Assembly (NCBI GenBank): GCA_030147525.1
Contig: JASBVF010000010.1
Span: 124,001-188,000 of the forward strand
From: Bacteroidota bacterium
GTDB lineage: Bacteria; Bacteroidota; Bacteroidia; Chitinophagales; Saprospiraceae
DNA length: 64,000 nt
Reading direction: 5' to 3'
In this document: positions 35,915 through 64,000 of the stretch, in pieces
Layout of the letters: every line of letters starts with the position of its first letter
Position numbering within the stretch: the stretch's first letter is position 1
The notes under the pieces: model-generated
Told to the model about the DNA's origin: nothing
The model's input: the letters and a program-made list of their open reading frames with translations, nothing else
Databases searched by the model: none
Position numbers and translations under genes: made by a program

Positions 35915-38900
35915 ATGAGAAAGACTCTACTCAGATATGTGGCTTTTTATGCTCTTTTGCATGTCTTCTGGATCAATGCACACAGTAGTGATCTGATTTT
36001 GAATCCCTCCGGGACAATATCTGTCTTCGAGACATGCAATGATGGTCTTGAAAAAAAATACAGCAGCAATTTTTCTAAATTCTTATCTGTCAGGCATGCA
36101 GGCATTTCAAGCGTATGGTTTCCTGTTGATTTTAGTAATAAGTATAACCCTGGTGTAAACCTGAAAAATACCCTTTCCTCCGAATCCGGATTTCAATTTT
36201 TCAGCCTTTCAGAAATTTGCGACAATGGCATCGATGACGACGGCGACGGCTTGATTGACGAAGCTGACCCCGATTGCCAGCTTAACTGCGCCGGCACTGG
36301 CGACATGCTGAGCCATGTCTATTTCATTCCTTTTCCGGAGGAAGAACTCCACCGCTTTTTTCGACTTTTTACCGAATCCAATAACGGATCCATTTCCAAC
36401 GGTATCAATTCCACCATCTCCATCGTCGTTGCGGAAGACAGCACCGTGATCCGCTTCGATCACTGGGAAGATGGTTTTGAAAATTCGCTGCTCAACCCTG
36501 TGCAAAATACAACGCAGATCTGGGGCGACGGCAACCCTGCCAACGGCAAAGCTCCCGGCTACAATTCTGATATTTTTCATGCCGGGGACGCGATCCAGCT
36601 CGATAACGTGGTGACCCTTCCAAGAAATTCGTCCTCGCTGAAGTTCGATGGCCGGGATCTGATCGTTTCCAGCCGTCCGCTGACTGCTACCAGGGTGGCG
36701 TGGCCGCAATCTCCCGGACCTGAACTCTCCGTAGCCATCCAGATGACGGAACAGACCGGCTGGGGGACAGTATATGAGGTGCCGGTTGGGGAAAATACTC
36801 CAGCCAGCAGCGGCATGTTCGGCAATACGGGCGTTTTTACCATGGCTTGTCAAAACGGCACGACCATTCAGATTGATAAAAATGGCGACGGCTCGATCGA
36901 TACCACCCGGATTTTGAACAAAGGGCAATCATTTTCTTTGTCGGGAGGCATTTTCGCAGGTGCGAAGATTTTTGCCGATCATCCGGTGCAGGTCACGGTT
37001 TGTGCGGGCGACCTCAGTTCTGAGTACGAAACCCGGTGGTTTACCCTGGCGCCGCTGGCGCAATGGGGGAACAGCTATTTCATGCCGGTCGGTACCACGG
37101 TAGAATTTGACCCGGCGCACGTTTTCATTTACAATCCAAACCCGGCGGCCATCCATGTTAATTACAATACGGCCAGGGGTTCTGGCTCCTTTAACGTTTC
37201 TTCCGGAAGTACGCACCGGTTCGAGATGCCCATGCAGTCCGGCGCAAAATTTTACACAACGGACGGCAGCCATTTTTATGGCATCGGCACGATGGATAGC
37301 GACGATTCCGATAATGATTCCCATGAGTGGGGCATTTCATTAATACCGGCAGCAGCCCTGGGGCCAGAGGCGCTTGTGGGATGGGGGGCGGGCAGCAAAA
37401 ATCTTTCCCGGAACGGCAGCCCGGTATGGGTGACGCCTTCCGCTGCAACGACGATTTATGTGGACTATGACGGCAATCCCGCTACGGGGCCGGAGGTGGA
37501 CATTGCCGGAAATCATTTCGATATAAAATTTCAGGCACAGCCCTTCAGAAGTTACAGGGTTTTGGACCCTGACACGGATCAAACCGGGATGCGGCTGTAC
37601 ACCCTCGACGGAAAATCGATCGCTGTAGCCTGGGGTCAGGATCCCTCGCTGTCTTCTCCGTCCAATCCATTCCTCGACCTCGGCACGTCCGTTGCGTCGC
37701 TTCAAAAACCTTATGCCTGGAATGAATTTCAGCTGATTTCCGACGCTGATAACAATGGAATTGCCGGACCCGGCGATACCATTCTGGTCTCACTTTTTAT
37801 TAAAAACGCAACTGACAAATCAATTTGTGATATTACGGTGAAGGACACGCTACCGCCGAATTTTACTTACGTTGAAAATACGGCCAAAAGAAATGGCGTG
37901 GCCATCCCCGGCCAGGTCGTGCCGCCTGCCGGCACTGTTTTTCCTTTGGATGAAACAGGCTTTGCCTACGCAGGCATTGCCCCCGGCAGTTGCGACACCA
38001 TCAGGTTCAAAGTAAGGCTGGACACCGTTCCCGCCGGTATGAAAGAAGTAAATGCAAGATTTCAGGCCAACATTGGCTCTTCCCATTCAAAACTGGTGGC
38101 TGAAATAAAAATCCCGGTGGCCGCTGCTGCGACCCCGCATACGGTGAATTTTACAGATACCAACGAGAACCCGGTTTCATTTTTTACCGAAAACTCAACC
38201 GCACAGATTACAATTACCGACGCAGCGATGAACAGGGATTCGACCAGCACGGAATCCACTACCGCTACCGTTCAAAATCTTTCAGGCACTGACTGGGAGG
38301 ATATCATTTTTACAGAAAACGGTACCAACTCAGATATTTTTAACTCCACGATCGTGGTATCGTCTTCAGCGGGTGATTTTCCCGGTGACGGTATCCTCAA
38401 CGCATCGCCGGGCGATACACTTTCGGCTTCCTACGTTGCACCGGGTAACGATGTCGTCAGCACAACCGCCGTTGTCACGACACGTGTTGAATCGCAGGGA
38501 CTGTACTTTTCCGACCCGGCATTATCCATGGACCGGAACAACCCCATAGCGACCCAGGATACATCCACGGCCCTGGCTCCGGCCCTTGCTACCAGCGGCG
38601 CCCTTCAGGTTGATAATGTCACTTTCAGCTCGATCGAAGGTGTCAATTCTTTCTCCTTCAGCCATACCACCACGAGTGCCGCCAACAGGCTGCTGCTGGT
38701 CGGTTTTTCAGGCGATAAGAATGGTGAAATATTGAATGCTGTTACTTACAACGGTCTGCCCCTGACTTACCTTGGGTCGATCAATAACAACGATAAGGCA
38801 AGGATCGAGATTTGGAGTTTGCTGAACCCGCCCGCCGGGTCTTACAACATCCATGCTGTTTTTAACACGACCTCAAAAGGCGTTATGGGTGCAGTAGGCT

Positions 38901-41900
38901 TCTCCGGAGTTGACATGACAAACCCAATCGGAAACTTTTCATCCGTCTCAGGCAGCGGCAACTCCATCAACCTCAATATGCCAGCCGGCAACGGGGAGAT
39001 TTTATTTAACGTGTTGGCCTGGAAAGGAGCTGGTGCAGTAACCCAGGGTTCCGGGGTCACGCAAATGTGGAACCTGACCAACGGTGGTGGCTGGACGACA
39101 GGCTGTGCGGGTATTTTACCGGTCAGCGGCGCTTCAGCCAACCTTTCCTGGACACGCTCCGGTAGTGAATTTTGGTCGATGGGCGTGGTGCCGGTCAGGC
39201 CTGCTCCTTCCGGCATTGCGAGTACCTCTTTTACCCAGACAACGTCACTTTGCAGCGCTTTAACCATGCCTGCCGGCGGCTTGATAACGGCCACGGCACA
39301 TGTGGATGTAGTCGCCGGAATCATGCCGGTGAACCCCAATGTTACCGCAACTTTAAAATACGATGCCACTACTTTTGCCACCCTTACCACCCCGGTTTAT
39401 GACAGCCTCGCCGGTACATTGACGTGGGCAGGCGCCCTGCCGGGAGTTACTACCATACCCGCAGGAAAATCAATCGTTTTCAATGTGGCGACCCAACAAA
39501 ACAACTTGTCGTTTCGGATAAAATACGACAGCGATTCCGCTCCTTCCGGCATCAATCTGCCGGTGACTTCGATTATCAAAGTCGATTCGGTCAATGTGTA
39601 CAATGCGCCGTACCCGGGAGGCAGCAAGGTTACCTCCTGCGTCAACGGGGATACGGTTTATGTTCGTTCTTTCATCAGCGATCCTTTTGGCAGCAATGAC
39701 ATTACGAAGGCGGATCTGGATATTACGTTTCCCGACGGGACCCCGTTTATTGATTCCACTTTGTCAAATGTGCATGTGGCGGGCGTGACCGGGTGCGGTA
39801 AAATCTATGAATTCCGCTGGCCCACTTCCAACCAGCAGGGATTGTTCAATATTAAAACTACCGGTTATGCAGGTTATGATGGCGTAACTGCATCAGCAAA
39901 GACGAGGCTCGACGTGGGGTTCCTGGACAATGGTACTCCATCGCAGGCCAATTTCACCAATGCCGGCAACGTGCCCGTGACGGCTTTCCAGCCGGACAGC
40001 ACGATTTGCATGTCCGTCAGGGATTTTGATCAAAACCTGACGGATACGCTGGTTGAATCTGTTTCAATCAAACTCGAAAGCAGCAGTGGCGACCAGGAAA
40101 CCGTGATCCTCACAGAAACGGGCGTGAATACAGGTATTTTCAAAGCCTGCATGGCTGCCAGCAGTACGCTGGCCGGCACTTCGGGCAATGGGCAGCTCTA
40201 TGCCCGGGAAGGTGATATCCTTTCTTTCACCTACACGGATCCGGACACGGAAAAGGACAAAAGCGCAGCAACTGCAAATGTCCAGTCCACAGCCCCGGTG
40301 ATGAGGGTGATCAAAAGTTTGAAAAAACCCTTTGACGGCGTAGCCATTCCCGGCGAGCAACTTGAGTATGAAATCGCAGTCAGCAACCCCGGCCCGACCA
40401 TCCTGCTGACGGCTATCCTGACAGATACTTTCGATCTCAGCTGCATGAGTTACGTTTCTTCCAGCTATCCGCTCAGCGGCGCCGGGCCTGGAAGCCTCAG
40501 TTGGAATGTCGCCCCGATCATGCCGGGTGAAATCAAAAAGATAAAAGTATTTTTCAATGCTACCGGTGCTTGCAATCCGGGTAAAAATATTGCCTCCGGC
40601 AATGGTATGGATGAAAATGCAGTCGCAGTTGCGGCAGCACCCGACACGGCCCTTGTGATCGTAGCCAACCCGAAAATGACGGTGGACAAGGCTTTGGTCA
40701 GCCCGGTATCGGGGCCGATTTTTGTGGGGGATACCCTCACTTACAATATTACGGTCACCAATACCGGTACTTCGATCATTTCTTTGATCCCGCTGTCCGA
40801 CCAGTACAGCGATTATTTCATGAAATACGTTTCAGCCAGCCCGGCTGCCACGGGTGGGGGAGGCGTTGTTTTGTGGGATAACCTCGGACCGCTTGCACCG
40901 GGCGCTTCCACCACGGTTACGGTCAAATTCATCGCCATGCACGGCACGCCGGTGAACACCAACCATGCACTCGTGGAATTTGCCGTGGATACCTTCGGGA
41001 ACAAAGTACCCGCTGTGATCGATCGGGACATCAGCCATATTGAAAGTCCTCCGCTTGCTGTTAATGATGCGGTGACGACACCTAAAAATACAGCCGTCAC
41101 CATCCCTGTCGCTTCCAACGATTCGGATCCAGACGGCAACCTGAATACGGCAAGTGTTTCCGTCGCCGACGTATCCGGGCCAGCGCACGGGACGGTTACG
41201 GTCGATCCGGTGACGCATGCGATCGTTTACACGCCTGCCATGGATTTCTTTGGGCTCGATTCTTTCCAATACAAAATCTGCGACTTGACCAACCTGTGCG
41301 ATACGGCATGGGTGATTGTGGATGTTACATTCGTCGAAGAGATCTGCAACAACGGCATCGATGACGATAACGATGGATTGGCGGATTGCTTCGATCCGGA
41401 GTGTGGCCAGCCGGCGATTGATCTTGTTTCAACAGTTCAACCGGACAATTGTCCAACGCCAAACAACGGTCAGATTGTCGTATCAGCTTCCGGATCAAAC
41501 CTCAGCTACAGCATTGACGGCGGCGCTACGTATCAGAATTCCAATACTTTCACGGGCTTGTCAGCCGGTAGTTTTAATATTCAGGTAGTCAATTCACTGA
41601 CCGGCTGTCTGACAGACTACGCAGACAATCCGGCGGTGTTGACAGAGCCTGATTGTATTGAAATCTGCGGCAACGGCATCGACGACGACGGCGACGGCCT
41701 GACGGATTGCGACGATACCGATTGCCAGCCGAAAGCGAATTGGGATTCTTTTATCGCCTGCCCCGGTACGCCGCTCCAGGAACAGGTTATTTTCAATGAT
41801 TCCAATATCCAGAATTCCTTGTTCGGAATTGCTGCACTTCCTTCAAACGGAAGCGTCAGCATCAATAACAACGGGGTTTTCCAGTACTCACCCTACTCCA

Positions 41901-44074: not shown

Positions 44075-44256
44075 AAATTGAAGGAAACTGATTTGGAATG
44101 ATAATTGAGATTTAAGTTGTGAAACCTCCCGGATTTTTAATCAGCATCCCCCCTCTCCCTTTCATCAATGATCAGATTTGAGACCAGAAAATTAGTGTGT
44201 CTTGCACAGGAGACTATGCTGGTGCTTGTAGTTTTTGCTGGTTTCTCATGAGAACT
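44075..44256 (+). promoter_or_regulatory. Spacer and leader before the 5548-aa gene
   Basis: This 182-bp spacer contains GAAACCTCCCGG and a C6-rich pyrimidine tract (44148-44160, CCCCCCTCTCCCT), about 100 nt before the chosen start. No terminator is visible after the upstream stop codon, so co-transcription with the preceding gene cannot be excluded. Confidence 0.35.
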
Positions 44257-47200
44257 ATGACAAAAAACACTATTATGTTTTTACGCCAGAAATTATTCCT
44301 ATTCAGACATTTTCTCTTGTCTGCTTGTCTGATCCCCATCCTAACTTATGCGGTAGATCCGGGTAACAATCATGTATTTCTGGAAGGTGGATTAGCGGCA
44401 CGGCTTTATGAAAATTTGAAACAAAAGCTGATTGTTACGACAGGGAAAGTATCTCACACCGATGCTAAACAGACTTTCCTTTCACCTCCACCTGCCACTG
44501 TTACTTCCCGGGTGAATGCTAGCAGCGACGACGCCGAAGAAAATATTAGTAGTGGTTCCGTGGATTTGACCAGTACTGACCTGGAATTAACTACGGACGG
44601 CTCCACTGTTCAAATCATTGGAATGCGTTTCAACGGATTGGGAATTCCGGCCGGGGCGATCATCACCAGCGCTTACGTGGAGTTTGAAACGGATGTGGCA
44701 TGGAGCTCCGCCTGCAATTTGACGATTAAAGGCCAGGCAGCCGACAACCCCGGCACTTTTACTACTACAGCCTATGATATTTCATCACGACCGAAAACCA
44801 ACGCAACAGTGGCCTGGACTCCCACTGCCTGGAACACAGTAGATGAAAAACATCAAACACCCGACCTGACTCCTGTCATTCAGGAAATAGTTAACCGCTT
44901 TGGATGGGCCAGTGGGAACTCGATGGTGGTATTTATTGAAGGTACAGGCACACGAGAAGCAGAATCTTATAATGGGGAGGCTGCGGCCGCACCGTTATTG
45001 GTTGTTAATTACACAACCGATGGTACATTAACCGGTGCTCCCGGAGGAGTGACCGGCTCACAGTTATGGCTGAAGGCAAACCAAGGAGTTAACACCGGTA
45101 CAAACCTTATCTGGGCCGACCAATCGGGGAGCGGCAGGTATGGCTTACAGAGCACTGCGGCCAATATGCCAGTCCTCGTCAATAACGGTATCAATTTCAA
45201 TCCATCCTTATTATTTGATGGAACAAACGATCATTTGACCATCCAGAACCTGGCGGGCTTACCTACCGGTGCTGCACAGGTAGAGGTATTTGCAGTGGCC
45301 AACCAGCTGGATTTAGCGTCACAGTGGTCGCATATAGTGGCTTATGGTACAGGCGCCACCAGCCAGATGTTTGCCCTGAGCAAACAACAATACAGTGGGA
45401 ATGCTGCTGCCACCACCTGGGGGAATGATGCCATAAGTTCTTCTGGCGAGTTTGACAACGGAAAACCTGTCTTGTTAGACGGAAAATACACGGGTACGCA
45501 AGTGGTTTTCTCCAGTTATGGCCGGCAAAGGGCGACCCAGACATCAACCAATAATAAGAATATTGCCGGGGGCAGTATCGGCGCCTATCCCAATGCGACA
45601 AGTGGTACATATTGGAATGGGAATATTACTGAAATAATCTTATTTCCAACCAACCTGACTACGGCCCAGGTCAATAGGGTCAACTCTTACCTTGCCCTTA
45701 AATATGGCATTACCCTTGACCAAACCACCCCTCAGAATTATACTGCCTCTGACGGCACGACGATTTTTTGGAACGCCACGACCAACAGCGGCCACAAAAA
45801 TAACATCGCCGGTATCGCCCGGGACGACTCCTCGGCATTGAACCAAAAACAATCCAGGTCGGTGAATGCGGGCTTGCAGGTGGCCATTGGCCTTGGCAAC
45901 ACCATCGCCGGTACCAACGCCGGTAATCCGAATGATTTCACTGCCGACTATTCGGCGCTCGTCTGGGGCGACAATGGCAGTTCGGCATTAGCCTGGACGG
46001 CTACCGGCGCCCCTGCGGGCAGGCAGGTCCTTTCCCGTACCTGGAAGGTTCAAGAGACGGGGAGTGTTGGTTCTGTTCAAGTGCAGGTGCCGGACAACAG
46101 CGGCACGAACGGATTGCCGGATGAGGGCAGTAACCCTGTTTACCTTTTGGTGGATGCTGATGGTAATTTCGCATCTGGTGCTACTGTTATCCCCATGACC
46201 TTGAACGGTACCAACTGGGAAGCCAATGTTGATTTCACCAACGGGCAGTTTTTCACTTTTGCCCAGGGCTGCGTCTTTTCACTCGCAGGTACCCAGATAA
46301 ATGTCACGCCCTGTGCAGGCGGAGCGAATGGCGCTATCAACCTCACGGCGTCGGGAGGTGTTGCTCCTTATACCTACAACTGGTCGGACATTGGTACAGT
46401 GGGTAACCTGCAAAACCGGACTGGACTCGTAGCCGGGGATTACACAGTATCCGTAACGGATGCAGCTTCCTGTCTTACGGTGGCTTCATTTACTATCACG
46501 GAGCCAGACCCCATCACACTTTTTGGTACGGTGACGCCTGCCTCGGGCAGCCCCAGCGGTGCCATTGATTTGACAGTGGTGGACGGAGTGGCGCCTTATG
46601 CTTACGCCTGGGCAGCCAGTGGAGGCGGGGTAGTACCGGCAGGACAGGCCAATAGCCAGGATTTGACGGGACTGGTTGGCGGCACCTATAAAGTAACGGT
46701 AACTGATGCAGGTTCTTGTACCAAAACAGCAACTTACGTGGTGCAAAGCTCCGTTTACAAACAACTTTACCTATCCGACCCTTCCCAGGCGCTCGATCGG
46801 ATGGACCCGGTTGCATCGGCGGATGGGACTACAGCACAAACTGTTACGATTTCCAATGTCAGCAGCAGCACGGTTACTTTAAATCCAATTGCTGATACTT
46901 ATTTAAACAGAGAGGCATTTACTACCAACTTCGGCACCAACACGACTTTTTCCATCGAAGGGGAGGAGAAAAAATTGAAACGGGCTCTCTTAAAATTTGA
47001 CCTTAGTTCGATTCCTGTGGGGGCGGCAATTACTTCGGCTACACTCACACTGCAGAAGGTGGGTGGGGATATTATCAGCTACAACGTCGGTATTTACCGC
47101 ATGGAAAATACCACTCCAGCAAAAAACTGGACGGAAAATGGCGCTCACAATGTCAAATACGATGGTACTACACAATGGACTGCATTGGGAGGCGAGGGCG

Positions 47201-50200
47201 ACCACAATACCTCGGAATACGCCTCTACCAATGTTTCATCCAACGGCTCCTATTCTTGGACTGTTACTTCCTTGATTGATGATTGGGTAAACAACGGGGT
47301 GCCCAACAATGGATTGATGATAAAAGCTCTTCCCGAACAAGCAGGAAATCAGCCCCTTTTTGATTTTAATTCAAGGGAGGCGGCTTCCGGTAAACCTGTG
47401 CTGACGATAAATTACGCTACTGCGGGTGGTACTAATACTACCTTTACTCAAAGCCCGGCGCTTTGCAGCCCATTGACCATCAAGGCCGGGCAACCCATTA
47501 CCATCACCAACTACATTACCATCGTTTCAGGCTCCATGCCTGCCAACCCCAATATCACGGCAACCCTGAAATATGGCAGTAATATTATTATTTCTCTTTT
47601 CAACCCAACTTACAACAGCGGAACCGGGCTGTTGACTTGGACAGGAACGCTTGGCTCTGATAGAACGGTACCGGCCGGGCAGGCCCTTGTACTTGATGTC
47701 TCCACGAGCCAGAGCGGTGTCACCTTTGCCATTCAATACGACAGCCAGACGAAGCCCTCCAAAATCAACCTGCCCGTTTCCACCTACATTGACATTGCCT
47801 CCTACGACGTGTACAACACTGCCTACCCCGGCGGCAGCATCATCACCAATGCAGTGGGTGGACAAGTGGTCTATCCCCGTGCCGTCGTGACCGACCCGTT
47901 CGGGTTCAGCGACATTACGGGCCTGAACATCAACATTTCGCCGCCGCTGCCGGGCACCACCGTGGCCGCTACTTCGGTCGCCACGGCAGGTTGCACCCGC
48001 ACGTACCAATATACCTGGACAACGCCGTTTTCCAGTGGAACGATGAACATCCCGGCCACTGCCAAGGAAGGCCTTGAAAACACCGTGACCGACGTGCAGC
48101 CGCTCAGTTTCGACCTTTGCACGCCGACCATCGGCACGCCGGTTTTTGCATCGGGGGCAAGCTCCACCCGTTGCCAGGGGGCGGGCAGTGTGACCTACTC
48201 CGCCACTTCGACCAGCTCGACGGGTATCTCTTACAGCCTCGATGCGGCCAGCCTGGCTGCCGGTAACACCATCAGCTCCGTGACCGGGGCGGTCACTTAC
48301 GTGGCCGGGTGGGGCGGTACCAGCACCATCACGGCGATGGCGACCGGTTGCGGAGGCCCGAAAACTGCCACGCATACGGCCACGGTCGCTCCGAATGTCG
48401 GTACGCCCGTTTTTGTGTTGGGGGAAAGCTCCGTCCGGTGCCAGGGCGCCGGCACGGTGACCTACACGGCCACAGCATCCAATTCGACAGGCATCACTTA
48501 CAGCCTCGATGCGGCCAGCCTGTCGGCGGGCAACAGTATCAATGCCTCTACCGGGGCGGTTACCTTTACCGCCGGCTGGACGGGCACGTCCACCATCACG
48601 GCCAGTGCGGCTGGCTGCGGCGGCCCGAAAACGGCCACCCATACTGTGACACAGACCCCGTCGGTTACGACCCCTGTTTTTGCGCTGGGCGCAACCTCCA
48701 CCCGGTGCCAGGGCGGCAACAGCGTGACCTATTCAGCCTCGGCCTCGAATACCACTGGTATCGCCTACAGCCTCGATGCGGCCAGTGTTGCCGCAGGTAA
48801 TATCATCAACGCCAGCACGGGGGTAGTTACTTATGTAGCTGGATGGAGCGGCACTTCCACCATCACGGCAAGCGCTGCCGGTTGTGGCGGGCCAAAAACA
48901 GCCAGCCATACGGTCACCATCACGCCCAATGGGACGCTCACATTTGCCTTAGGGGCAACCTCAACCCGTCCTTACGGGGCAGGAATGATAACCTACACTG
49001 CCACAGCCAACAACGGCGGGGCTGTGACTTACAGCCTGGATGCTACCAGTTTGGCCGCCGGCAATACCATCAACAGCTCGACCGGACAGGTGACCTACTC
49101 GGCAGGTTGGGTAGGTACTTCCGTTATCACCGCCAGTGTGAATGGCTGCAACGGCACCCAAACGGCTACTCATACTGCAAACACCAATAACGTTTACAAA
49201 CAACTCTACCTCTCCGACCCCTCGCAGGCCCTCGACCGGGTGGACCCGGTGGCGACGGCGGATGCTACCACAGCTACCAGCCAGACGATTGGCGAAATCA
49301 ATACCATTCAGCCGTCCAACGGGGTTGCCATATGGCATCAAAATGGTGTGCAAACGCCTCAGTACAAGGTTTTTAGTGGAAATACGAATTCTTTTGGCTC
49401 AGAGGCAACCGCCCCTACGGTCGGTAACAACCTGTCGAGTGTCCTGATGACCGCACAGTCGCCAGTTAATCAGAGCGAAGCTTTTTTATTGGAAATTACG
49501 GACGGCAAGCAAATCTACCTGCATAAGTGGAATGGGTCGGGGTGGACGGCTGGCTCATTCAACCCGGTGGATGCCTCCCCCGTTAAAAATGTTAGTGTTC
49601 GCTCAGCTGCGATTGCCTACTCCTCCGATGGCAGCGCCATGCTGGTCTGGGACAATAACGTTGCTGACAACCTCGTGCATTACCGCACCTGGAGTGGAAC
49701 GAGTTGGTCGGCTGCCCAAAATTTCACCATCGAAACAGGTGCAAATAATAAGGCCGTAAACCACATGCGGCTCGCTGCGCACCCCAGCTCCAATGAAATG
49801 ATATTAGTATTCACAGATGATGGTGATGGAGATGACTACGCCTACGTCTGGAACGGGTCTTCCTGGGGAAATGGATTGGAACTGACCATCGATGGTTCCA
49901 ATACCCCGCACGATGCTAACGTGATATATGAACGAATCAGTGGTCATGCGCTGGTGGTTTTCGGGAAGGCAGATGACAACGCCATTTATTACCGGACCTG
50001 GGATGGCTCCTCCTGGAGTGCGGAACAGGTTAAGTCCTATCCAACAGGCGCAGCCACTGCTGCCAAGCTTGGTCCAACCAGTCTGGCAGCCAGTCCTAAC
50101 AGTGATGTTATATTGATGGGCTTGACAACCGAGGCGAAAGAAGGCATTTTTATGACCTGGGACGGAAGTTCCTTCTCCACGGCTGCACAGGACAACCGGA

Positions 50201-53200
50201 TTGTTACGGCACTCGACAAAGCCAAAAATATCAGTCCTATCGACATCGCCTTTGAAAGCCAAAGCGGTCAGGCATTGGGTGTTGTCCAATCCACCGGTGG
50301 GCAATTTGTCACCTATTTCACCTGGGCACCGGGAAGTGGTTACTCTGCGGCCGCCACAACGGCCGATTTTGGTAAAAAACCGAGGATAGTCCAGCTCAGT
50401 TCTGACAAGCACAGCGATAAAATCATGCTTTCGGTCAATGCTGAAAAATTGGGTAAAACCTTGCTCTGGAACGGCTCTTCCTGGGGTGCCATTATGGACC
50501 ATGAAACGGACATGGGCCTGAATGGAGATGAAGGGGCTGGAAACGGTATTCCCATCTCCTACTTCTGGTTACCCGTCGGAAACATTGTCTTCACCCCAAC
50601 GACAAGTTTCACCATGGCCCCGGCCTTGTGTTCTGACCTGACGATTAAAGGTAACCAAACCATCACGGTCACCACCTATCTGAGCATGGTGAGCGGTTCA
50701 TTGACCAATGGCCAGACCTATAACATCAATGCCGTGTTGCGATATGGCGGCACCAATATTGCCATTTTGAATCCGGCAACTTATAGTTCTGCAAACGGGG
50801 GCATCCTGACCTGGACCGGGTCGTTGCCGTCGGATGTAACGGTTCCTGCCGGGCAGGCTATTACCCTGGATGTAAGAGTTGCTAACAACATGCCGGGGGT
50901 TTCGTTTGCCCTTCTGTATGACAGCCAGACGAAGCCATCGAAAATCAACCTGCCGGTTTCCACTTTCATCGACATTACCTCTCATGCGGTGTACAGTGCC
51001 GCTTATCCCGGCGGCAGCATCATTACCAGTGTTGCTGCAGGTACTACAGTTTATCCCCGCACGGTAGTGTCCGACCCGTTCGGGTTCAGCGACATCACCG
51101 GTTTGACCATGAATATTTCACCCACCGTCGGCAACGTGACGGCTACTTCGGTCGCTACCGCAGGCTGTACCCGGACCTACCAATATACCTGGAACACGAC
51201 GGGACTTGGCGGCACCTACTCGCTGCCGGCCACTGCCAAAGAAGGGTATGAAAATGCGGTGACGGATGTGCAGGCACTCAATTTTGATATTTGTTCGCCG
51301 GCGATTGGTACGCCCGTTTTTGCGCTGGGCACAACGTCCTCCCGCTGCCAGGGCGCCGGTACGGTGACCTATTCTGCCACCTCCACGAATTCGACGGGCA
51401 TGACGTACAGCCTCGATGCGGCCAGTGCCGCAGCGGGTAATACCATCAATGCGTCAACCGGGGCAGTGACTTTCACTGCAAGCTGGAATAACCCTACCGT
51501 CATTACCGCCACAGCTACGGGCTGCGGTGGGCCGAAAAGCTCCACGCATACCGTGAACTTCACTTCTACCGTCGGTACGCCTGTGTTTGCACTGGGCTCC
51601 ATTTCGAGCCGTTGTCAGGGTGCGGCGACAGTGACTTATGCTGCCACCGCTAACAATTCCTCCGGCATTACTTACAGCCTCGACGGGGCCAGCCTCGCAG
51701 GGGGTAATACTATCAACGCATCGACGGGAGCCGTAACGTTTGTGGCAGGTTGGGTCGGTACGAGTACGGTGACAGCCAATGCCGCCGGTTGCAGTGGTCC
51801 AAAAACATCAACGCATACGATAACCATTGACCCGTCTGTTGGAACGCCCGTGTTTGATCTCGGAGCAAGTTCAACCCGCTGTGGAGGTGGAGTTTTCGTT
51901 TACACGGCCTCCGCTTCCAATGCGACAGGCATTACCTATAGTCTGGATGCGGCGAGCCTTGCTGCCGGTAATGCCATCAATTCAAGTACCGGGGCGGTTA
52001 CCTTCACAAATTCCTGGACGGGTAATTCCACCATTACGGCTACCGCCAATGGTTGCAATGGTCCTTCCAGTGCCACCCACACTGTCAGTATTTCACCAGC
52101 TTGTCCACCCATCGCCCTGGACGATGCGGCAAATGGTCAGGGTGGATCACCCCTGATTATCAATGTGCTGGCAAACGATACAGATGTCAACAACGACATT
52201 AATCCTTCTTCCATTTCAATCTTGACCCAACCCGAGAATGGCGATGCTGTCATTTCGGGCGGGCAGGTAGTCTATTTGCCGAATGGTACGTTTGAAGGAG
52301 TTGACCAGTTTACGTACCGGGTCTGTGATTTTACTGCGCCCACGACACTGTGCGATACGGCAACAGTGTTGGTGACGATTGATCCGACGATAGTGGATGC
52401 ATGTTCGGAGGCGGTGAAGCCTCAGGTCTACTACATGCCTTACCCTGAGGGTGATGCCCGGCTTGCACTGATTGCATCTTCCGGGTCACCCTGGTTGCCT
52501 ATCCCGAGCAATAATATTCGCACCATCATCAGCATAAAAGTACCTTACCCGGGTATGACACTCCTATGGGATCACTGGGAAGACGGTTATGAAGCCGATC
52601 CTAGTAATCCTCTTCAGGCCACTACCCAGGTCTGGGGTGATGGAAATCCATACAATGGGGTAGCACCCGGTTATGCTGACGATGTCCTGCCGGCAGGTGC
52701 AGCTATCGTGATGGATAATACAATGCCAGCCTATCCGAGGAATCCTGCCAATATATTTTTCGATGGAAAAGATAAACTCATTTCATCCGGGGCGATTACG
52801 GTAACACAGGTTTCAGGGGAGCCATCTATCATTTTTGTGCAGTGCATGAAAACCAACGTTACGCCTACAATCAACTTTGGGAAGTCTTTCACCATCCCGG
52901 TAGGTGAGGATTTTAACAGCCAGGATTTTAGATATACAGCCTTGTTTATCCGGGCATCTGAAGATAGCACGGTAGTAAGTATCGATAAGAACAATAATGG
53001 TTCGTTTGAAACAATAATAACCTTAAATGAGGGTGAATCTTATCTTGTGGATGGAGGTGTTTTGACAGGGGCCGTAGTCACCGGTTCTGCGCCTATTGGT
53101 GTTGACCTTCATTTTGGTGGCGTCGATGGATATTCTTCAAGAGAGGTGCCCGTCTTTCCGGCGACCTGGTATTCAGATACATATTACACGCCGGTGCCAA

Positions 53201-56200
53201 CTACCCAATCGCCCGATTCGGCGGTGGTCATGTTGTACAACAGCTTGAACAGGGCCATTGATATCAACTGGTTTTTCGGGTTGTCAACGCCGGGTGGAAC
53301 CATCAACCTGCCGCCCAAATCGGTAAAAAGATTCCCGCTGGGAATTGATTCCAATAAGGCTTACAAATTTGTCAACCCAACCGGCGAGTCATTTACAGCT
53401 ATTGAAATCGTGGACTCCTACACACCGGGAGGCGGGGGTAATTCCGGTTCAACGTACGACTGGGCGTTTAACCTGATTTCAGAGGAACGTCTGACCAGTT
53501 TTGCAGCAATCGCCTGGGCGCCCGGTTCGGTGAATGGCACGGCTAATGGTAATCCGGTTTGGGTTACCCCGACGGCAAACACCACTATTTACGTGAAATA
53601 TGATGGTGATTTATTAAATGGCGGAAGCCAAAGTCCCTGTGGTTTGAGATATGATGTTTCTTATACTTTAAATGAACTCAGGTATAAAAAATTATTGGAT
53701 TCGGATAAAGACCAAAGTGGTCTGGCGGTTTATACGTGTGATGGTACGAAGATAGCTGCTGCGTATGGCGAAGATCCTTCTTTGTCAGGCCCGGCCAATC
53801 CATACTGGGACGTTGGTTCTACGATTCAACCATTCTGCGGGCAGAAACTCATTTTTGCCAGTAACGACCGTGCCTATACTGTGACGGACCATCCGGTGAC
53901 TATTCCCGTTTTGAAAAACGATAAAGGTTTTCTGGCGGAAATTGACCAGCCGACCTTGAGTATCCTCGGATATTTGCCGCCTAAAAATGGTACTGTCAGC
54001 GTCAACAGCAACGGTACCTTGCTTTACACGCCCAACCCCGGATTTATGGGCATGGACACCCTGGAGTATGGCATCTGTTCGACTCCAGGTTCACCTCCGC
54101 AGGTCGTTTGCGACCGGGCTTACGTTTACATAGTGGTGAACAGTTGCCCGGCTCCATCGCAGCGGAATCTTATCCTGGGGCAGGTCTTTTCCGATAAAAA
54201 TAAAGACGGCATCAAAAATGATGACGGCTCTGGCTTCCCCGGCGCTAAGGTTTACCTCTATGTGGACGGCAACTGCAACGGCGCTATTAATCCGGGTGAA
54301 CTGGCAGATTCGGTCATCGTGGATAGCTCCGGCAGTTATCAATTCATCATGTACCCTGAAAAATTGCTATCTGATAATTTTGACGGTCCCGCAGGTACGA
54401 GTACCTGTGCGTCCGGAAATGATGGTACGGTTTCCTGGGCTTCCAACTGGGTGGATGCTGGAGACCCCTCCACAGGTTTTTGTGTTTCACCTGCGCAATC
54501 GGAAGGGAACACGGATGTGGAAATTATGCAGGACGGTGCGTTCGGTTATGCGCTGCGGCTGGATGATTTGAACAGGTCTGCCACACGAACTGCCAACCTG
54601 AGCGGAGCGACTTATGCTTTCCTGAGCTTTTCGTACCGGAAAGCAAATAATAACCTCACTTCGGGAGAAAATATTTTTGTGCAGGTCTCCACGAATGGTA
54701 GTTCCTTCACGACGATTTTCACCATCTCGGGCAATGGCACGACGGATGCGGGTTACGTGCCGATTTACAACCTGAATATTTCCTCCTTTGCTGCTGCTAC
54801 GACCTCTATCCGCTTTTTAACGAACAGCAGCGTTGATGAGGGAGATTTTGTGTTTATCGATGACGTCACAATTCGTTATCTGAAATATCCGCAATGTTAT
54901 ATCACCAGAATTGATCCGGCTACCATACCTGCAGATTATTACCTGACCACTGCGGGTCAGCATGTGATGACTGCTACCAACTCGGGTACCTGTCTGGCGC
55001 CTTACGACTTTGGTATTGCTAAAAACAGCACGACGATCAGCGGTACGCTGTACAATGACGCCAACGGTTTGTCAGACGGCCAGGTAAATGGATTGGCATT
55101 TGGCAATCCTTCCGGCGCCACAGTTTACGCCTACCTCGTGGATGCATCTGGTAAAGTGCGTTTCAAAACGACGGTTAACAGCGCCAATGGCACCTATTCA
55201 TTTCCGCAGGCCGACGTCAACAGCACCTTTACCCTGATGGTCTCGACGACTGATGTGCCGCTTTACGCTGACGCACCGTCTTCCGCTAATCTTCCGGCAG
55301 GCTGGGCCAGTGCCGGTGAAGCCTATGGAACGAACAACGGAGCAGGTACCGGCAATGAGACCGGCACGCCAAACTCTGCTATCGCTGTTACAACAGGTAC
55401 CCTTGCCGTTACAGGCGTAAATATTGGTATCCAGCAGGTGAATGCCGGACCGGACAGGTTCGCATGCCGTTCCGGATCGGTGACGATGGCCGCTACTACA
55501 ACCCCCGGCACCTGGACAGCCCAGGCGGGGAATCCCGGCACTGCAACGATCACTTCTCCAAATTCTCCCATAACCACCATTACCAACTTTACGGCAACGG
55601 GAACTTATTACTTCCTGTGGACCAATAATGGCGTCACCGACTTTGCCACCGTAACCGTGGTAGCTGATGCTTCCATTACTGCGCAGGCAACCGGTTTTAC
55701 GGAATGTGTGGGCGGGTCGCTGCCGGTTTCAGTGACAGCCACAGGTGGGGTGCCGCCGTTGAGTTACCAGTGGCAAAAAAGTACTGACAATGTTAATTTC
55801 ACCAATATCGGCGGAGCAAACCTGCCGGAATACACGCCGCCAAGCACGACCCCCGGCACAACCTATTACAGGGCGATCATCACCCCGAATGGGGGTGGAT
55901 GTGGAACGCTGACTTCGGCTGTTGCGCCGGTTTCGATTGTGAATGACCCTGCAATTGTAGTACCTCCTGTCAATATCTCTGAATGTATCGGTGAGCAGCA
56001 GGCCCTTACAGTCACCGTTTCCGGTGGCACTTCGCCATTGAATTACCAGTGGCAAAGCAGCTCCGATAATGTAACTTTCTCCGACATACCCGGAGCGGAC
56101 AGCTCATCATATATCCCGCAGGACGTAACGCCCGGTACGACTTATTACAGGGTGATTGTAAGCGCCGGTGGCAATGGCTGCGGAGGTGAGACTTCCGGAA

Positions 56201-59200
56201 GTGTTTCCGTAACAGTAAACAGTGTGCCCTTTGTCGATCTGGGTGCTGATACGACCATTTGCCCCGGTACGAATGCTACCCTGACCGCCAGCACCGAAAG
56301 TGGCGCCCCTCCATATAGTTTCACCTGGAACAATGGGTTGGGCAGCGGACAGGTGAAAACCGTCAGCCCTTCCGGTGAAACGACTTACGAAGTTACCGTA
56401 ACAGATAGTAAAGGATGTACGGCCACGGATGACATACAAGTCAGCATCGGTACTTGTACCGAGGTTTGCGACAACGGCATCGACGACGACGGGGACGGCC
56501 TGACGGACTGTGCAGACCCTGATTGCGGTGGTACAATCACTGCTTCGGTCACTGCCGATGATTCCTCGCTTTGCGAAGGTCAGGCTGCCACGCTGACCGC
56601 CAGTGCCAGTGGAGGGGCGGGGCCGTTCACTTATACATGGTCGAATGGTCTTGGCAACGGTGAAATCAAAGTGGTGACGCCTGTTTCAACAACTATCTAT
56701 ACAGTAACGGTTTCATCGCCTTCCGGCTGTACCGGCACTGCCCAGGTGACTATAGTGGTCAATCCGCAGCCGGTCGTGGATGCCGGTTCTGATATTACAG
56801 TGTGCTCCGGCACAAACATAAACCTGCTGGCAAACGCCACAGGTGGAGACGAGCCTTACTCCTATGTCTGGAGTCACGGGCTGGGAGCAGGCAGTTCGCA
56901 TTCAGTGACGCCCATGGCCACAACGACTTACCAGGTGACGGTGACGACAGCCAATGGCTGCACTGCAACGGGCGAAGTGACAGTGAGCGTTAATGAAACG
57001 CCGGTGGCGAACGCAGGCACTGATGTAACGATCTGTAAAAATTTCAGCACGACACTGTCAGCCAGTGTCACAGGTGGCAAACCTCCGTACCAGTATGCTT
57101 GGAATAACGGCCTTGGCACAGGAAGTTCGAAGACCGTAACGCCACTGGTGACAACGACCTACACGGTGACCATCACCAGCGACAATGGTTGCTACAGCAC
57201 AGACCAGGTAACGGTGACAGTACAGAATTGCCCGGAAATATGTGGAAACGGTATTGACGACGACGGCGACGGTCAGGCAGATTGTGCTGATTCGGATTGC
57301 GGCCCTACGGTAACACTGGGATCGGACATTTCCATCTGCACCAATCATTCAGCTACCCTGGTAGCTACAGTAACGGGCGGCAACGGCGGCCTGACCTACA
57401 CCTGGAGCAATGGCCTTGGCAGCGGACAGAGTAAAACAGTAACACCGCTGGCAACCACAACCTACACGGTAACGGTGACCTCGCAGAGCGGCTGTTCAGC
57501 CGTGGATCAAATAACGGTGACGGTACTGCCTTGTCCGGAAGACTGTACCAACGGCATCGACGACGATAACGACGGGTTGATCGACTGCGATGACCCGGAT
57601 TGTGCGGGCGTGACAGCGCCGGTGCTGATGGATGATGAATTCACGGCCTGCCCGGGCATGGTGTTCACCGACCGGGTTATTTACAATGATCAAAATCTTC
57701 AAAGCCCGGCCTACAGCATTCTGGCGCAGCCCCAGACAGGGACGGTAACCATCGACGGGACGGGTAAATTTATTTTCACGCCGGGCAGCACGCAATGCAC
57801 GACGGATTATTTCATCTACCAGGTATGCAACCAGACGTCGGGATGTTGTGCATCGGCGACGGTGACGGTGACGTTTGGCGGCACCAGTTTACCGGTGCTG
57901 ACGAATGTTCCGGCGGATATCACGATCGGCTGCGACGATGCGGTACCGCCACCAACGCCGGTGCTGGCCATAGCGCAGTGTCCGGGGGTATATGTCAATT
58001 TTGACGAGGCCTCGAATTACAACAACATCGGCAATTGCCAGGCCTACAGTATCACCCGGACGTGGACGGCGACGGACGTATGCGGCAACACGGCGAGCGC
58101 CCAGCAGGTGATTACGCTGGTGGATCAAACCAGGCCGGAACTCTTCCAGCTCTATACCATGGCAAACGGCAAACGGCTGGTAGCCGGGGTTTCGCAACGG
58201 GTGACGCACGACTGGAAATACGTGAAATTTCCGGTAGCCTTCGGCCAGCCGCCGGTGGTGCTGACGCAGGTAGTGAGCAACAACGAAGCCTCGGCAGTGG
58301 TGGTCAAACAACGAAATATTTCAACGCAGGGCTTCGAAATGCGGCTGCGGGAAGAGGAGATGGCCGATGACAAGCATGTCGGAGAGAGTGTGGCCTGGGT
58401 AGCGATCGAGCCGGGCGGCCAGGGTAGTGGTTTGACCTATGAGGCGGGTACACTGGCAGATGTGACCCATGTTTTGAAAACATTGAATTTTACACAGGTT
58501 CATAATCTGGCGCCCCGGTTTTTCTCTTCAGTCCAAACGACGAAGCAACTGGACCCGGCGACCATTCGCCATATTGGTTTAAATACCGGCTCAGTGCAGA
58601 TGTACCTGCAGGAAGAGACGTCGAAGGACGGGGAGACGACCCATCTGGCCGAGAGAGTAGGCTACCTGGCAGTAGAGCCGGGTAAACTGATGCAAGACAA
58701 GGCGGGCAAAGCCTTTGGAGAAACGGGCAGTTTGAGCCTGACCAATGCATGGGCGACGGTGACGTTGACGAGGCGCTACAACAAGCCGGTGGTGATCGTC
58801 GGCGGATTGACGCAAAACGAAACGGATCCGGTAACGGTGAGGGTTCGCAATGTAACAGACCAAAGCTTCGAGGTGAGCCTGAAAGAATGGAATTACCTGA
58901 ACGGCAGTCACACACCGGAGGCGGTGTCGTGGATGGTGATAGAAGGCAGTCTGCCGGGTAATGATAATTATTACTGTGCCGGGGAGACGGAGACGCTGAT
59001 CCCTGGGGTGAATGTATTTGCGGTGGATAACTGCGACGATGTACCGGCATTTGGGCATGAGTCGTTCCAGTCTTTCACCTCGAACGGCTTGCTGACGACG
59101 CACTCGTGGATGGCCATCGACGACTGCGGGAACGTGAACGTGGTGACACTTTACGATACCTGCGCCATGGCGGCAGTGAAGGTGAAAGCGGAGTTGTACG

Positions 59201-60903: not shown

Positions 60904-61338
60904 CAGGCTTGTGTGACTTCGATGGTAAAAAATTATTGCACCGGATTTGTTGCTTTATCAGGGCAGATACGGAGGCTTTACGATCGGACTTTTTAAAATA
61001 AAAACTTTTGAATCATTAAAAATAAACTACATAACCGGGTATTTACGCTGGTATTTTAAAGGGTAAGATTTGAAAAATATCAGGTACGCCCCTCATTTTT
61101 CAATTGTTGGTAAGGTATTTGGATGGTGATTTTTAGATATCCCTTTTTATTTACCGATTCTCCCTCATCACAAGTTTGAAATTTGATATTCCCCCCCCCC
61201 TCCTGAATAACACGGTTTTCCCGTACCCCCTGCGAGTTTTTTCAGGTGTAAAATGAACTATGAATCTGCTTATTGCCATATAACCCCTGGTCCTTGAGCA
61301 AAATTTGTCTTAATGACAAATGAGATTAGCAAACACTT
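60904..61338 (+). promoter_or_regulatory. Leader of the last gene, with C10 run and inverted repeat
   Basis: This 435-bp AT-rich spacer has no gene. A run of ten C (61191-61200) followed by TCCTG lies about 140 nt before the start. An inverted repeat, ATTTGTC (61303-61309) with GACAAAT (61315-61321) and a 5-nt spacer, lies 18 nt before the ATG and could be an operator or a hairpin over the leader. No terminator for the 5548-aa gene was recognised. Confidence 0.5.
61191..61200 (+). repeat. C10 homopolymer in the leader
   Basis: Exactly ten consecutive C residues, bounded by T on both sides, upstream of the final surface-protein gene. Runs of this length are prone to slippage; whether it lies within a promoter is unknown. 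Confidence 0.95.
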
Positions 61339-64000
61339 ATGATGAAAGCTGAACAAACTTTAACTAAAACAGGAATGAAGCATACGATATGCGGGAGGTA
61401 TAGATCTCCGGGCAGAGGCCGCTTATTTCGTCTGCCATTCTGCTCCGGCTTTACTGACCCCCTGTCAGGACTTGCTTCCGGGCGGGTTCTTCTCAAGAAC
61501 CTTGTCTTTATTTTTACAATCCTGTTGCACTTCAACTACGGAAGAGCCGATAACTCACTTCTGCTGTTACCGCCGGGGAATACTAATGGGCAAATTTTAA
61601 CCCATCAGTTTGAAACCAGACTTGGTATCACTTTATCGGTTCATCAGAACAATGAAAGACTTCTGTCGCTGAACAGGCCGGCTGGAATAAAAATCAACAA
61701 CACGGTCGGAGGAATTCAAGCGCATCATTTTGCAAATTTTTCATCTAACCAAATCGTAGGAATTCCGGTGATATTACCGAAATTCCATCTTGGGTTTGCT
61801 AACATCACTAATTCATTACTTTCCGAAAATAAAACTACATGTGAAGAAAATTTCTACACGACTGAAAATGAAAGCCTGAACTTCCAGTTTGTCGCTGAAA
61901 TCTGCGACAACGGCATCGACGACGACGGCGACGGCCTCATCGATCATGCCGATCCCGACTGTCCGGGAGTTACCAAGCAGCTCTACCTTTCCGATCCTTC
62001 TCAGGCACTCGACCGGGTACATCCCGGGCTGGTGTCGCCGGTGGATAATACGACAGCTTCGACCTCGCCGTTGGTTGTTGGAACCGGGGCGGCGGGTGCG
62101 TTCGGTACGCCGGTGGATATTTCCAACCAACTTGGTGATAACTCCATCACGCCGGATGTTGCAGTGTATGAGTCGGGTGGAACGGAGACAGTTCACATGG
62201 TTTTTAACAGTAAAAAATCAGGTGCGTCAAAGCGCAATATCTACTATTCCGGCAAGACCGGCGCCGGCGCATGGACTGCACCCGTGCTGATCAGCAGCGA
62301 TGCGTTTAACAATGATGCGCAGAGCTATCCTTCTGTCGCTGTGGATGCCAATAACAAAGTCCATGTAGTGTATGCCCATAAAAACGGAGCAACTGACAGC
62401 AAGATCAATATTTACTACGTAACCAATGCCAGCGGCTCATGGAGTGCGCCGGTAAGGATAAGCAGTAATTCATTTGGCGAGGACGCCTTTACGCCTGATA
62501 TAGCATTGGATGCAAGCGGAAAGGCTTATGTTGCGTACACACACAGAAACGGCTCTACCGATTCCAAGATCAATATTTACTATGTGACCAATGCCGGTGG
62601 TTCCTGGAGTGCGCCGGTAAGGATAAGCAGTAATTCATTTGGCAATGACGCTTTACAAAATCCTGCTATTGCGGTGGACGCTTCCAATAAAGCGCATGTT
62701 GCATTTTCGCATAGAAACGGTTCTACCGATTCCAAGATCAATATTTACTATGTGACCAATGCCAGCGGCTCCTGGAGTTCGCCGGCCCGCATCAGCAACG
62801 ATAGTTTCAACCAGGATGCAAGGTCAAATCCTTCCATTGCCATCGACGGCAATGGAAAACCGCACGTGGTGTATGGTCATAAAAACGGATCGACCGATTC
62901 GAAAGTGAATATTTACTACGTAAACAAAACGGGCGCTTCCTGGAGCAGCCCCGTCAATGTAAGTGGTGATATCAATGGGCAGGACTCCTTCAATCCGGAT
63001 CTGGCGATGAGTGCCACTGGTACTATCCGGGTCGCTTTCTCGAATATTTCGACCAATGTGTTTTACACGGAAAATTCAGGTTCGGGTGGCAGTTGGATTG
63101 CCCCGGTTGATATCAACCCGGCGACGCCGACCAAAAGCACGGATGGCGACAACCCGGCCGTTGCAGTTTCCAGCTCGCTGGTCCACGTGGTTTACCAGGA
63201 CAAGCATGTTACCTTAAGCGGCGATATCGATGTCTGGCACATCAGCGCCCCGGTTTCGCCGGTTGCTACGACTATGACGTTTACACAGGCTCCGTCGATG
63301 TGCAGTCCGCTGACGATCAAAGCAGGACAGCCCATCACCATTACCACCTATGTTTCGATCATCAGCGGCACCATGCCTGCTTCACCGGCTATTTCGGCTG
63401 TTCTGAAATACGGCTCAACGAATATTATTACGCTCAACAATCCAACCTACAACAGCGGCACAGGTATTCTGACCTGGACCGGTACGCTTGGTTCCGCCGT
63501 GACGGTACCGGCCGGGCAGGCGGTTGCCCTGCAGCTTACGACGGCACAGACGGGAGTTTCCTTCAGAATAGACTACGATAGTCAAACAAAACCCTCGAAG
63601 ATTGACCTGCCTGTTTCAACTTATATCGACATCACTTCATTTGCGATGTACGATGCTCCTTATCCGGGGGGCAGTATCATCTCAAATGCAAGTGCCGGTT
63701 CGACGGTGTACCTGCGGGCGGCAGTAACGGATCCTTTCGGATCGAGCGATATCACGGGTCTGAATATTTCCATCACCCCACCCGGCAGTTCGGTTGCCGC
63801 TACTTCGGTTGCCACTGCGGGTTGTACCCGTACCTATGAATATCCGTGGGTGGTGCCAGCCGGTGGTGGTACTTACAATATGCTGGCAACTGCCAGAGAA
63901 GGCTACGAAAACACTGTAACAGATGTTTTCCCTTTGACTATCAGTTTTTGTTCTCCTGTCATCGGCGACCCGGTTTTCACCGCAGGTGCGTCTTCCAACC
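61339..64000 (+). CDS. Secreted mosaic surface protein, 3' truncated by the window edge
   Basis: The frame is open from tandem ATGs at 61339/61342 to the window end (887 codons). The N-region before the hydrophobic signal (NLVFIFTILLHF, about residues 55-66) is unusually long at about 54 residues. After about 110 low-complexity residues comes a Cys-bounded NGIDDDGDGLIDHADPDC loop (near 190), as in the 2719-aa protein. VTKQLYLSDPSQALDR follows directly at 61972. The insert (about 62100-63260) is a propeller-like array of near-identical 55-57 residue blades (INIYYVTNASGSWSAPVRIS; PxIAxDxxxKxHVxY), resembling sialidase/BNR-type repeats. The APSMCSPLTIKAG module runs from 63280 to about 63950, and SPVIGDPVFTAGASSN begins an Ig-like array like those in the 5548-aa gene. 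The C-terminus is not visible. A dockerin-like tail as in its neighbours is likely but unproven. Confidence 0.9.
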   Translation, partial: MMKAEQTLTKTGMKHTICGRYRSPGRGRLFRLPFCSGFTDPLSGLASGRVLLKNLVFIFTILLHFNYGRADNSLLLLPPGNTNGQILTHQFETRLGITLSVHQNNERLLSLNRPAGIKINNTVGGIQAHHFANFSSNQIVGIPVILPKFHLGFANITNSLLSENKTTCEENFYTTENESLNFQFVAEICDNGIDDDGDGLIDHADPDCPGVTKQLYLSDPSQALDRVHPGLVSPVDNTTASTSPLVVGTGAAGAFGTPVDISNQLGDNSITPDVAVYESGGTETVHMVFNSKKSGASKRNIYYSGKTGAGAWTAPVLISSDAFNNDAQSYPSVAVDANNKVHVVYAHKNGATDSKINIYYVTNASGSWSAPVRISSNSFGEDAFTPDIALDASGKAYVAYTHRNGSTDSKINIYYVTNAGGSWSAPVRISSNSFGNDALQNPAIAVDASNKAHVAFSHRNGSTDSKINIYYVTNASGSWSSPARISNDSFNQDARSNPSIAIDGNGKPHVVYGHKNGSTDSKVNIYYVNKTGASWSSPVNVSGDINGQDSFNPDLAMSATGTIRVAFSNISTNVFYTENSGSGGSWIAPVDINPATPTKSTDGDNPAVAVSSSLVHVVYQDKHVTLSGDIDVWHISAPVSPVATTMTFTQAPSMCSPLTIKAGQPITITTYVSIISGTMPASPAISAVLKYGSTNIITLNNPTYNSGTGILTWTGTLGSAVTVPAGQAVALQLTTAQTGVSFRIDYDSQTKPSKIDLPVSTYIDITSFAMYDAPYPGGSIISNASAGSTVYLRAAVTDPFGSSDITGLNISITPPGSSVAATSVATAGCTRTYEYPWVVPAGGGTYNMLATAREGYENTVTDVFPLTISFCSPVIGDPVFTAGASSN
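62230..63070 (+). repeat. Near-identical propeller-blade repeats of 165-171 bp
   Basis: The AAG codon opening the blade strand recurs at 62230, 62401, 62566, 62734 and 62902 (spacings 171, 165, 168, 168 bp). The stretch at 62466-62640 (GCGCCGGTAAGGATAAGCAG and flanks) is repeated almost unchanged. The pattern KINIYYVTNAxGSWSxP recurs in the protein. The near-identity of the central units points to recent duplication or gene conversion. Confidence 0.9.

Follow-up and report, generated by a model that had tools for sequence, protein, structure and literature searches.

Polymorphic toxins of the CdiA-CT and Rhs kinds combine a constant carrier with a payload that is exchanged beside a conserved junction, the payloads being terminal toxins accompanied by immunity genes. 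Ig-like split domains of RTX adhesins were reportedly the subject of work by Graham in 2024. As described in the parts of two papers used here (PMC12077191, PMC10865825), RTX adhesins are giant fibrillar proteins with Ig-like stalks, in which the chain of a split domain forms strand one of a beta-sandwich, buds off a ligand-binding domain and then completes the sandwich; different split domains carry different domains. For the Csh NR2/PAD adhesins, an excerpt of PMC10952558 describes adhesive domains spread among fibrillar surface proteins. Among the matches listed for literature titles and abstract openings, none concerned a Bacteroidota split-domain scaffold, and the portion of PMC9210967 used here holds no 'split' or 'shuffl' wording.

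We analyzed a window (the whole stretch of DNA under study, 64,000 nucleotides; G000:C39:124001-188000) from a 7.1 Mb genome of 59 contigs. Three consecutive giant genes, P0001 (35915-44074), P0002 (44197-60903) and P0003 (61339 onward, running beyond the window to a total of 2964 aa), contain four cassettes, each with a head bearing the motif LYxSDPxxxxDR and a tail of ~230 residues. The insert between them differs in each (212, 195, 437 and 402 residues for c1 to c4). All four cassettes lie where the initial annotation had placed them:

38492..38572, plus strand: head of c1 in P0001, found as a profile match
38573..39208, plus strand: insert of c1, GFSG type, among 27 site-1 GFSG cassettes and without Pfam match
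39209..39904, plus strand: tail of c1
46753..46836, plus strand: head of c2 in P0002, modeled as strand E5-13
46837..47421, plus strand: insert of c2, DNRLRE/CBM96 type (NF033679, E 4e-23), of lower model confidence
47422..48111, plus strand: tail of c2
48112..49191, plus strand: TPVF..RCQG Ig-like array after c2, with RCQG at P0002 aa 1325, 1414 and 1503
49192..49275, plus strand: head of c3 in P0002
49276..50586, plus strand: insert of c3, WNGSSW repeat region, whose profile also matches the inserts of L075 and L103, without Pfam match
50587..51285, plus strand: tail of c3
61969..62058, plus strand: head of c4 in P0003, variant DRVHPGLVSPVDNTTA, in common with L073_2
62059..63264, plus strand: insert of c4, BNR repeats (BNR_2, E 3e-12)
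63265..63942, plus strand: tail of c4

Head profile A4, built with the window heads included, matches the four window heads at E 4e-19 to 1e-14. Searched against its own genome, the c2 tail returned itself and three others at 71, 65 and 44% identity (E 1e-97, 2e-81 and 5e-53; 42-71% over the direct comparisons as well), and no further cassette copy was found by this tail search. Chance resemblance of the four heads and four tails is excluded. The names first given to two inserts are borne out by NCBIfam for DNRLRE and by Pfam for BNR. For the GFSG and WNGSSW inserts, a Pfam scan at E 0.05 gave no match, and because of this the description of WNGSSW as 'propeller-like' remains a guess. Three of the four tails had been said to lead into RCQG arrays, which holds for c2 and c3, with the array of c4 starting at the window edge and c1 lacking RCQG; in L070, the 100 residues that follow c4 share 65% identity with the corresponding stretch after c2.

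Type IX sorting domains (CHU_C or Por_Secre_tail) occur in 5 of 7 neighboring genes scanned, and the Pfam scan of P0001 and P0002 gave no match to either family. P0001, P0002 and P0003 (L070:1340-10234) have their C-terminal 200 residues or so in common; this end contains two stretches resembling DxNxDG (AGDFNGDG..QGPxND and LNxDG..QGPxNDR) and is perhaps a calcium-binding anchor. Below the cut-off, an H-type lectin match lies near the C-terminus at P0001 aa 2138-2201 (E 2e-4) and again at aa 1906-1969 of the translation of window 52501-60902 (E 1e-4). A conserved part of P0002 contains a MAM-like domain (window 54349-54891; frame from 44182, aa 3390-3570) that stands at the end of a weak SdrD_B match and is present in L072 and L073 too, possibly as a second kind of split domain. 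Elsewhere in the window, 22026-24485 on the minus strand encodes a protein of the CotH kinase family that also has LTD, PKD and a type IX sorting tail.

Structure prediction of head plus tail gave a confident fold with the head as first strand; the insert sits after the head. The AlphaFold model of L045_1, a natural empty copy (37-sequence alignment; pLDDT 94.7, pTM 0.87), is nearly all-beta. Its head forms strand E4-11, then 16-18; the linker at site 1 precedes strand 43-48, site 2 lies just past strand 61-73, and site 3 falls at about 102-104, where strand 100-102 gives way to strand 105-112. The same strand order is kept with an insert in place in the model of c2 (463 residues, 27 sequences; pLDDT 80.6, pTM 0.65), which runs E5-13, E17-19, E31-33, the DNRLRE insert, and E232-237 on; every stretch with pLDDT under 50 falls in that insert. 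From the strand order in these models, the head would be the first beta-strand of a putative jelly-roll-like beta-sandwich domain. Foldseek matches were weak, with a best E of 9e-5 and a TMq of at most 0.42 among the matches listed, which include MAM-Ig, CocE-type hydrolases and SiiE and do not include 9CSE. The tail has no significant Pfam, NCBIfam or PDB-sequence match (best E 0.074, ZirU_fam). The weak Foldseek matches, together with insignificant ones to BetaGal_ABD2 (E 0.13) and DUF5001 (E 0.15), suggest a jelly-roll-like part followed by an Ig-like part.

We then asked how tightly the head is tied to the tail, as the head might be a mere linker. Across the 398 family genomes (the window's own included), a search with the head profile alone, the less biased test of linkage, found at least 36 heads; they come from 16 genomes, each of which is among the 20 that bear tails. 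Upon reading the coordinates, 35 of the 36 stand ahead of a tail in the same order as in the cassettes, and the remaining one (G143:C253) ends about 415 bases from its contig end. The head as a mere linker is thereby ruled out. In the tail-fetched relatives, 65 of 66 heads precede a tail in the same frame (c4 enters this count both from the window and from L070), a figure biased because these relatives were fetched by tail; in the exception, L060, the tail lies in a different frame piece from the head. The reverse relation is looser, with no head detected for 8 of the 68 tails in the tree, some of them cut by stretch ends; L068 and L069 are distant tails in which no head was found.

The tail was detected in 7 of 60 relatives, in at least 20 of the 398 family genomes and, in a sample of 395 genomes from across the phylum, in at least 3, the own genome counted each time. 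The genome searches scored at most 7 (tail, family), 7 (tail, phylum) and 19 (head) first-look candidates per genome, and their counts are lower bounds. In genome_contigs, a scan that relied on two peptide patterns gave a lower-bound count of at least 44 tail loci, 41 of them titled MAG. Their titles name Saprospiraceae, Lewinellaceae, Chitinophagaceae, Eudoraea, Algibacter and Winogradskyella, and further Verrucomicrobia, Lentisphaerae, Hydrogenedentes, Gammaproteobacteria and others, for which bin membership may be wrong. The nearest tail there is L026, from a bin titled Saprospiraceae (80%), followed by one titled Sphingobacteriales (75%). The patchy distribution fits horizontal transfer as a candidate route. 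One tail, G372:C94:11073-11762, has an in-frame TAA, which may reflect decay of this copy or a mistake in the assembly.

The insert repertoire was examined in 60 labeled cassettes; 8 of the 68 tails, without a head found, went unlabeled. At site 1, GFSG occurs 27 times, MAM-like 10, DNRLRE 9 and BNR 2, with single cases of Kelch, CBM4_9, X1, WNGSSW, MAM+WNGSSW, DNRLRE+GFSG and MAM+WNGSSW+DNRLRE. Here 'MAM' is a working name taken from below-cut-off Pfam matches, and DISC, for X1, was named by eye without a match. Pfam supports Kelch (E 6e-22), CBM_4_9 (1e-10) and CBM96 in L103 (6e-21); the GFSG, WNGSSW and X1 inserts have no Pfam match. L113, whose degenerate head was read by eye and which stands outside the 60, contains Laminin_G_3 and DUF2341 by Pfam. 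Beyond the initial annotation, we found cassettes in which site 1 is empty (5 of 60: L040, L042, L045, L110_2 and L107), as well as two further places at which the tail is interrupted. At model position about 37-49 (site 2), a GFSG- or DNRLRE-type domain interrupts the tails of L072_2, L073_1, L074_1, L075_1, L043_1 and L110_2, with L062 and L113 added by eye; at about 61-98 (site 3), the interrupted tails are L107, L065 and L067. In L110_2 a filled site 2 goes with an empty site 1, and L065 has GFSG at both occupied sites. L064 and L067 were missed by HMMER default filters, found with filters off, and left out of the tree.

Several insert families are also encoded outside the scaffold in the fetched stretches: MAM-like 18 times, GFSG 3 (excluding two L067 matches located in a cassette), DNRLRE 3, CBM4_9 1 and X1 1, with none for WNGSSW or BNR. 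Such occurrences would suit ordinary domain accretion, in which head and tail are one stalk unit that tolerates random insertions with no display role, but we regard this reading as very improbable, given that several inserts belong to carbohydrate- or ligand-binding-type families and that the same insertion places recur in loci whose titles name different phyla. The CBM4_9-type domain outside any scaffold lies at L073 aa 261-420 of a 4260-aa frame (E 9e-36); the same domain is the insert in the orthologue L072_2, and the free-standing copy is a possible donor form.

At orthologous places, the inserts differ within the lineage. P0002 has orthologues in two congeneric genomes, G007 (L072), in which 2053 residues align at 73% identity, and G001 (L073). 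The last cassette (wB_2, L072_3 and L073_2) holds WNGSSW, GFSG and BNR inserts, respectively, which are unrelated to one another, between upstream sequence of 75-81%, tails of 66-79% and downstream sequence of 77-81% identity. In the first cassette, the tails of wB_1 and L072_1 are 80% identical and enclose unrelated DNRLRE and X1 inserts, with the upstream 120 residues at 41%; the first cassette of G001 has a DNRLRE domain just 32-35% identical to the window's, and GFSG at site 2. The comparison is one between species. Synteny is one-sided: the three genomes share, in the same order, a run of genes whose last member encodes a CHU_C protein. In the relatives the giant gene comes directly after this member, whereas about 40 kb separate the two in G000. 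Part of the intervening DNA (window 4895-34697) matches genes that in G007 lie on the opposite side of the giant gene, and the locus has thus been rearranged. These orthologous loci, along with pairwise insert comparisons, rule out one insert family per lineage; taken with head-tail linkage, they uphold the earlier proposal of a constant scaffold with exchanged inserts.

The varying number of cassettes in these orthologues (two in wB, three in L072, two in L073) is also what would be expected if an ancestral array of fixed-insert cassettes had been lost differentially, by unequal crossing-over between repeated tails and Ig arrays, with lineages retaining different ones and no insert ever changing scaffold. 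This account, which we consider unlikely, gains from the wB_2 tail, which groups with L077 apart from L072_3 and L073_2 (92/96), and from upstream sequence that is often unlike between similar tails. L073_2 has c4's unusual head variant along with a same-kind BNR insert (69%); at that place the exchanged piece therefore includes part of the head, and such joint travel speaks for differential loss as well. However, the sister tails L072_3 and L073_2 (92/96), 79% identical and as similar as their flanks, hold GFSG and BNR inserts. Differential loss is also at odds with same-kind inserts of 31-39% identity in tails of 69-77%, with site-2 inserts of 73-78% in tails of 52-60%, and with the empty and doubly filled scaffolds.

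For tail identities from 30-40 up to 70-80%, the same site-1 content was found in 0.27, 0.25, 0.25, 0.22 and 0.28 of pairs (chance 0.25), and from 80% up the insert kind was shared in 3 of 4 pairs; the cassette pairs share ancestry and are not independent, and most close pairs come from the window's genus. With tails 70-80% identical, homology was found for the downstream 120 residues in 24 of 25 pairs, compared with 9 of 31 for the insert and 7 of 31 for the upstream 120 residues, making the upstream part about as loose as the insert. Downstream homology fell to 77 of 133 pairs at 60-70% and to 0.13-0.17 below 60%, less than the 0.33-0.36 of the insert, an excess that we put down to the narrow insert repertoire; the insert is thus looser than the downstream sequence only among similar tails. 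When cassettes with inserts of one kind are compared, the identity of the inserts correlates with that of the tails (Mantel r 0.50-0.63). A bolder reading, to which we give limited credence, is of a cross-phylum plug-in display scaffold with three insertion places, akin to antibody loops except that whole domains are carried, with payloads exchanged so quickly that insert kind is near random once scaffolds differ by 20%, possibly through recombination in the conserved head.

A careful tree of 68 tails (L049_1, both halves of L104, L066 and L114 left out for short cover) requires 25 changes of insert label, compared with a mean of 31.0 and a range of 27-33 upon shuffling; none of 500 shuffles reached 25, and some phylogenetic signal in insert kind therefore remains. 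A single clade of the nine DNRLRE-only tails was rejected (p 2e-5). Clades of the BNR-bearing tails (p 0.42) and of the empty ones (p 0.08) were not rejected, and for this reason movement of entire cassettes may occur in some cases.

These data are best read as an exchange of inserts. In our probable explanation, each cassette serves a giant secreted protein as a split domain for display, and its insert is replaced between otherwise orthologous proteins. The head would form the first strand of the beta-sandwich, after which the chain would exit through a loop and build a domain of its own, in many cases from a family of ligand-binding type (CBM96-like, MAM-like, CBM4_9, LamG, Kelch or BNR), before returning to complete the scaffold and the Ig-like part that joins the stalk; the two further places in the tail would take inserts as well. 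In the course of evolution, replacement between orthologues would affect the insert, in some cases together with part of the head or as an entire cassette, changing binding specificity and leaving the stalk as it was. The inserts would sit at the cell surface and project outward, and their putative ligand binding is suggested by family resemblance.

As to the route, the initial annotation suggested possible recombination in the conserved flanks, which stays a candidate. Conservation among the four window tails is seen in the protein and does not extend to the DNA, with codons matching at only 26-50% of identical residues, which also leaves recent gene conversion among the four window copies without support. 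Silent identity is 0.42 for heads versus 0.35 for tails within genomes (24 pairs), and 0.26 versus 0.28 between genomes (971 pairs); in the window's genus the contrast is smaller, with heads at 0.44 within versus 0.38 between genomes and tails at 0.36 in both, and the excess for the heads is weak. An exact 99-108 bp match between cassettes (L037, L033 and the L110 pair) proved to be an overlap of adjacent stretches, not a repeat. Recombination or horizontal transfer presumably underlies the exchange, the likeliest route being homologous recombination in the scaffold following transfer between species.

In environmental bacteria, head and tail together provide a sequence handle by which sites of display, and domains that may bind ligands, can be located in giant proteins; Pfam matches are lacking for two of the four inserts in the window. 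Copies that are naturally empty or filled, along with orthologues that differ in their inserts, allow direct tests of payload acceptance and of the pace at which adhesin specificity changes, and they suggest a natural scaffold for engineered display. If the display reading is true, this would be a natural plug-in system that alters what the cell sticks to.

The split arrangement resembles the one described for RTX adhesins; distinctive here are the different inserts at orthologous places, in a tail without significant Pfam or NCBIfam match. As in the RTX split domains, to the extent covered by the parts of PMC12077191 and PMC10865825 used, the proteins are giant, with Ig-like stalks and different inserts per copy, and the modeled scaffold strands keep the same order with and without an insert. 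In contrast to RTX adhesins, no RTX family was found here (Pfam, E 0.01; P0001, P0002 and P0003 up to aa 887), type IX sorting domains mark five of the seven neighboring genes scanned, the tail can be interrupted at further places and has no significant sequence match to solved structures, and inserts differ at orthologous places, which those parts of the two papers do not report. The Csh NR2/PAD adhesins, going by the same excerpt of PMC10952558, likewise carry adhesive domains on different fibrillar surface proteins, but they represent one mutable fold in many proteins, whereas here unrelated folds occupy one constant scaffold. Lastly, the locus resembles the CdiA-CT and Rhs systems in joining a constant carrier to an exchanged payload, but here the payloads are internal domains, several of them of binding type.
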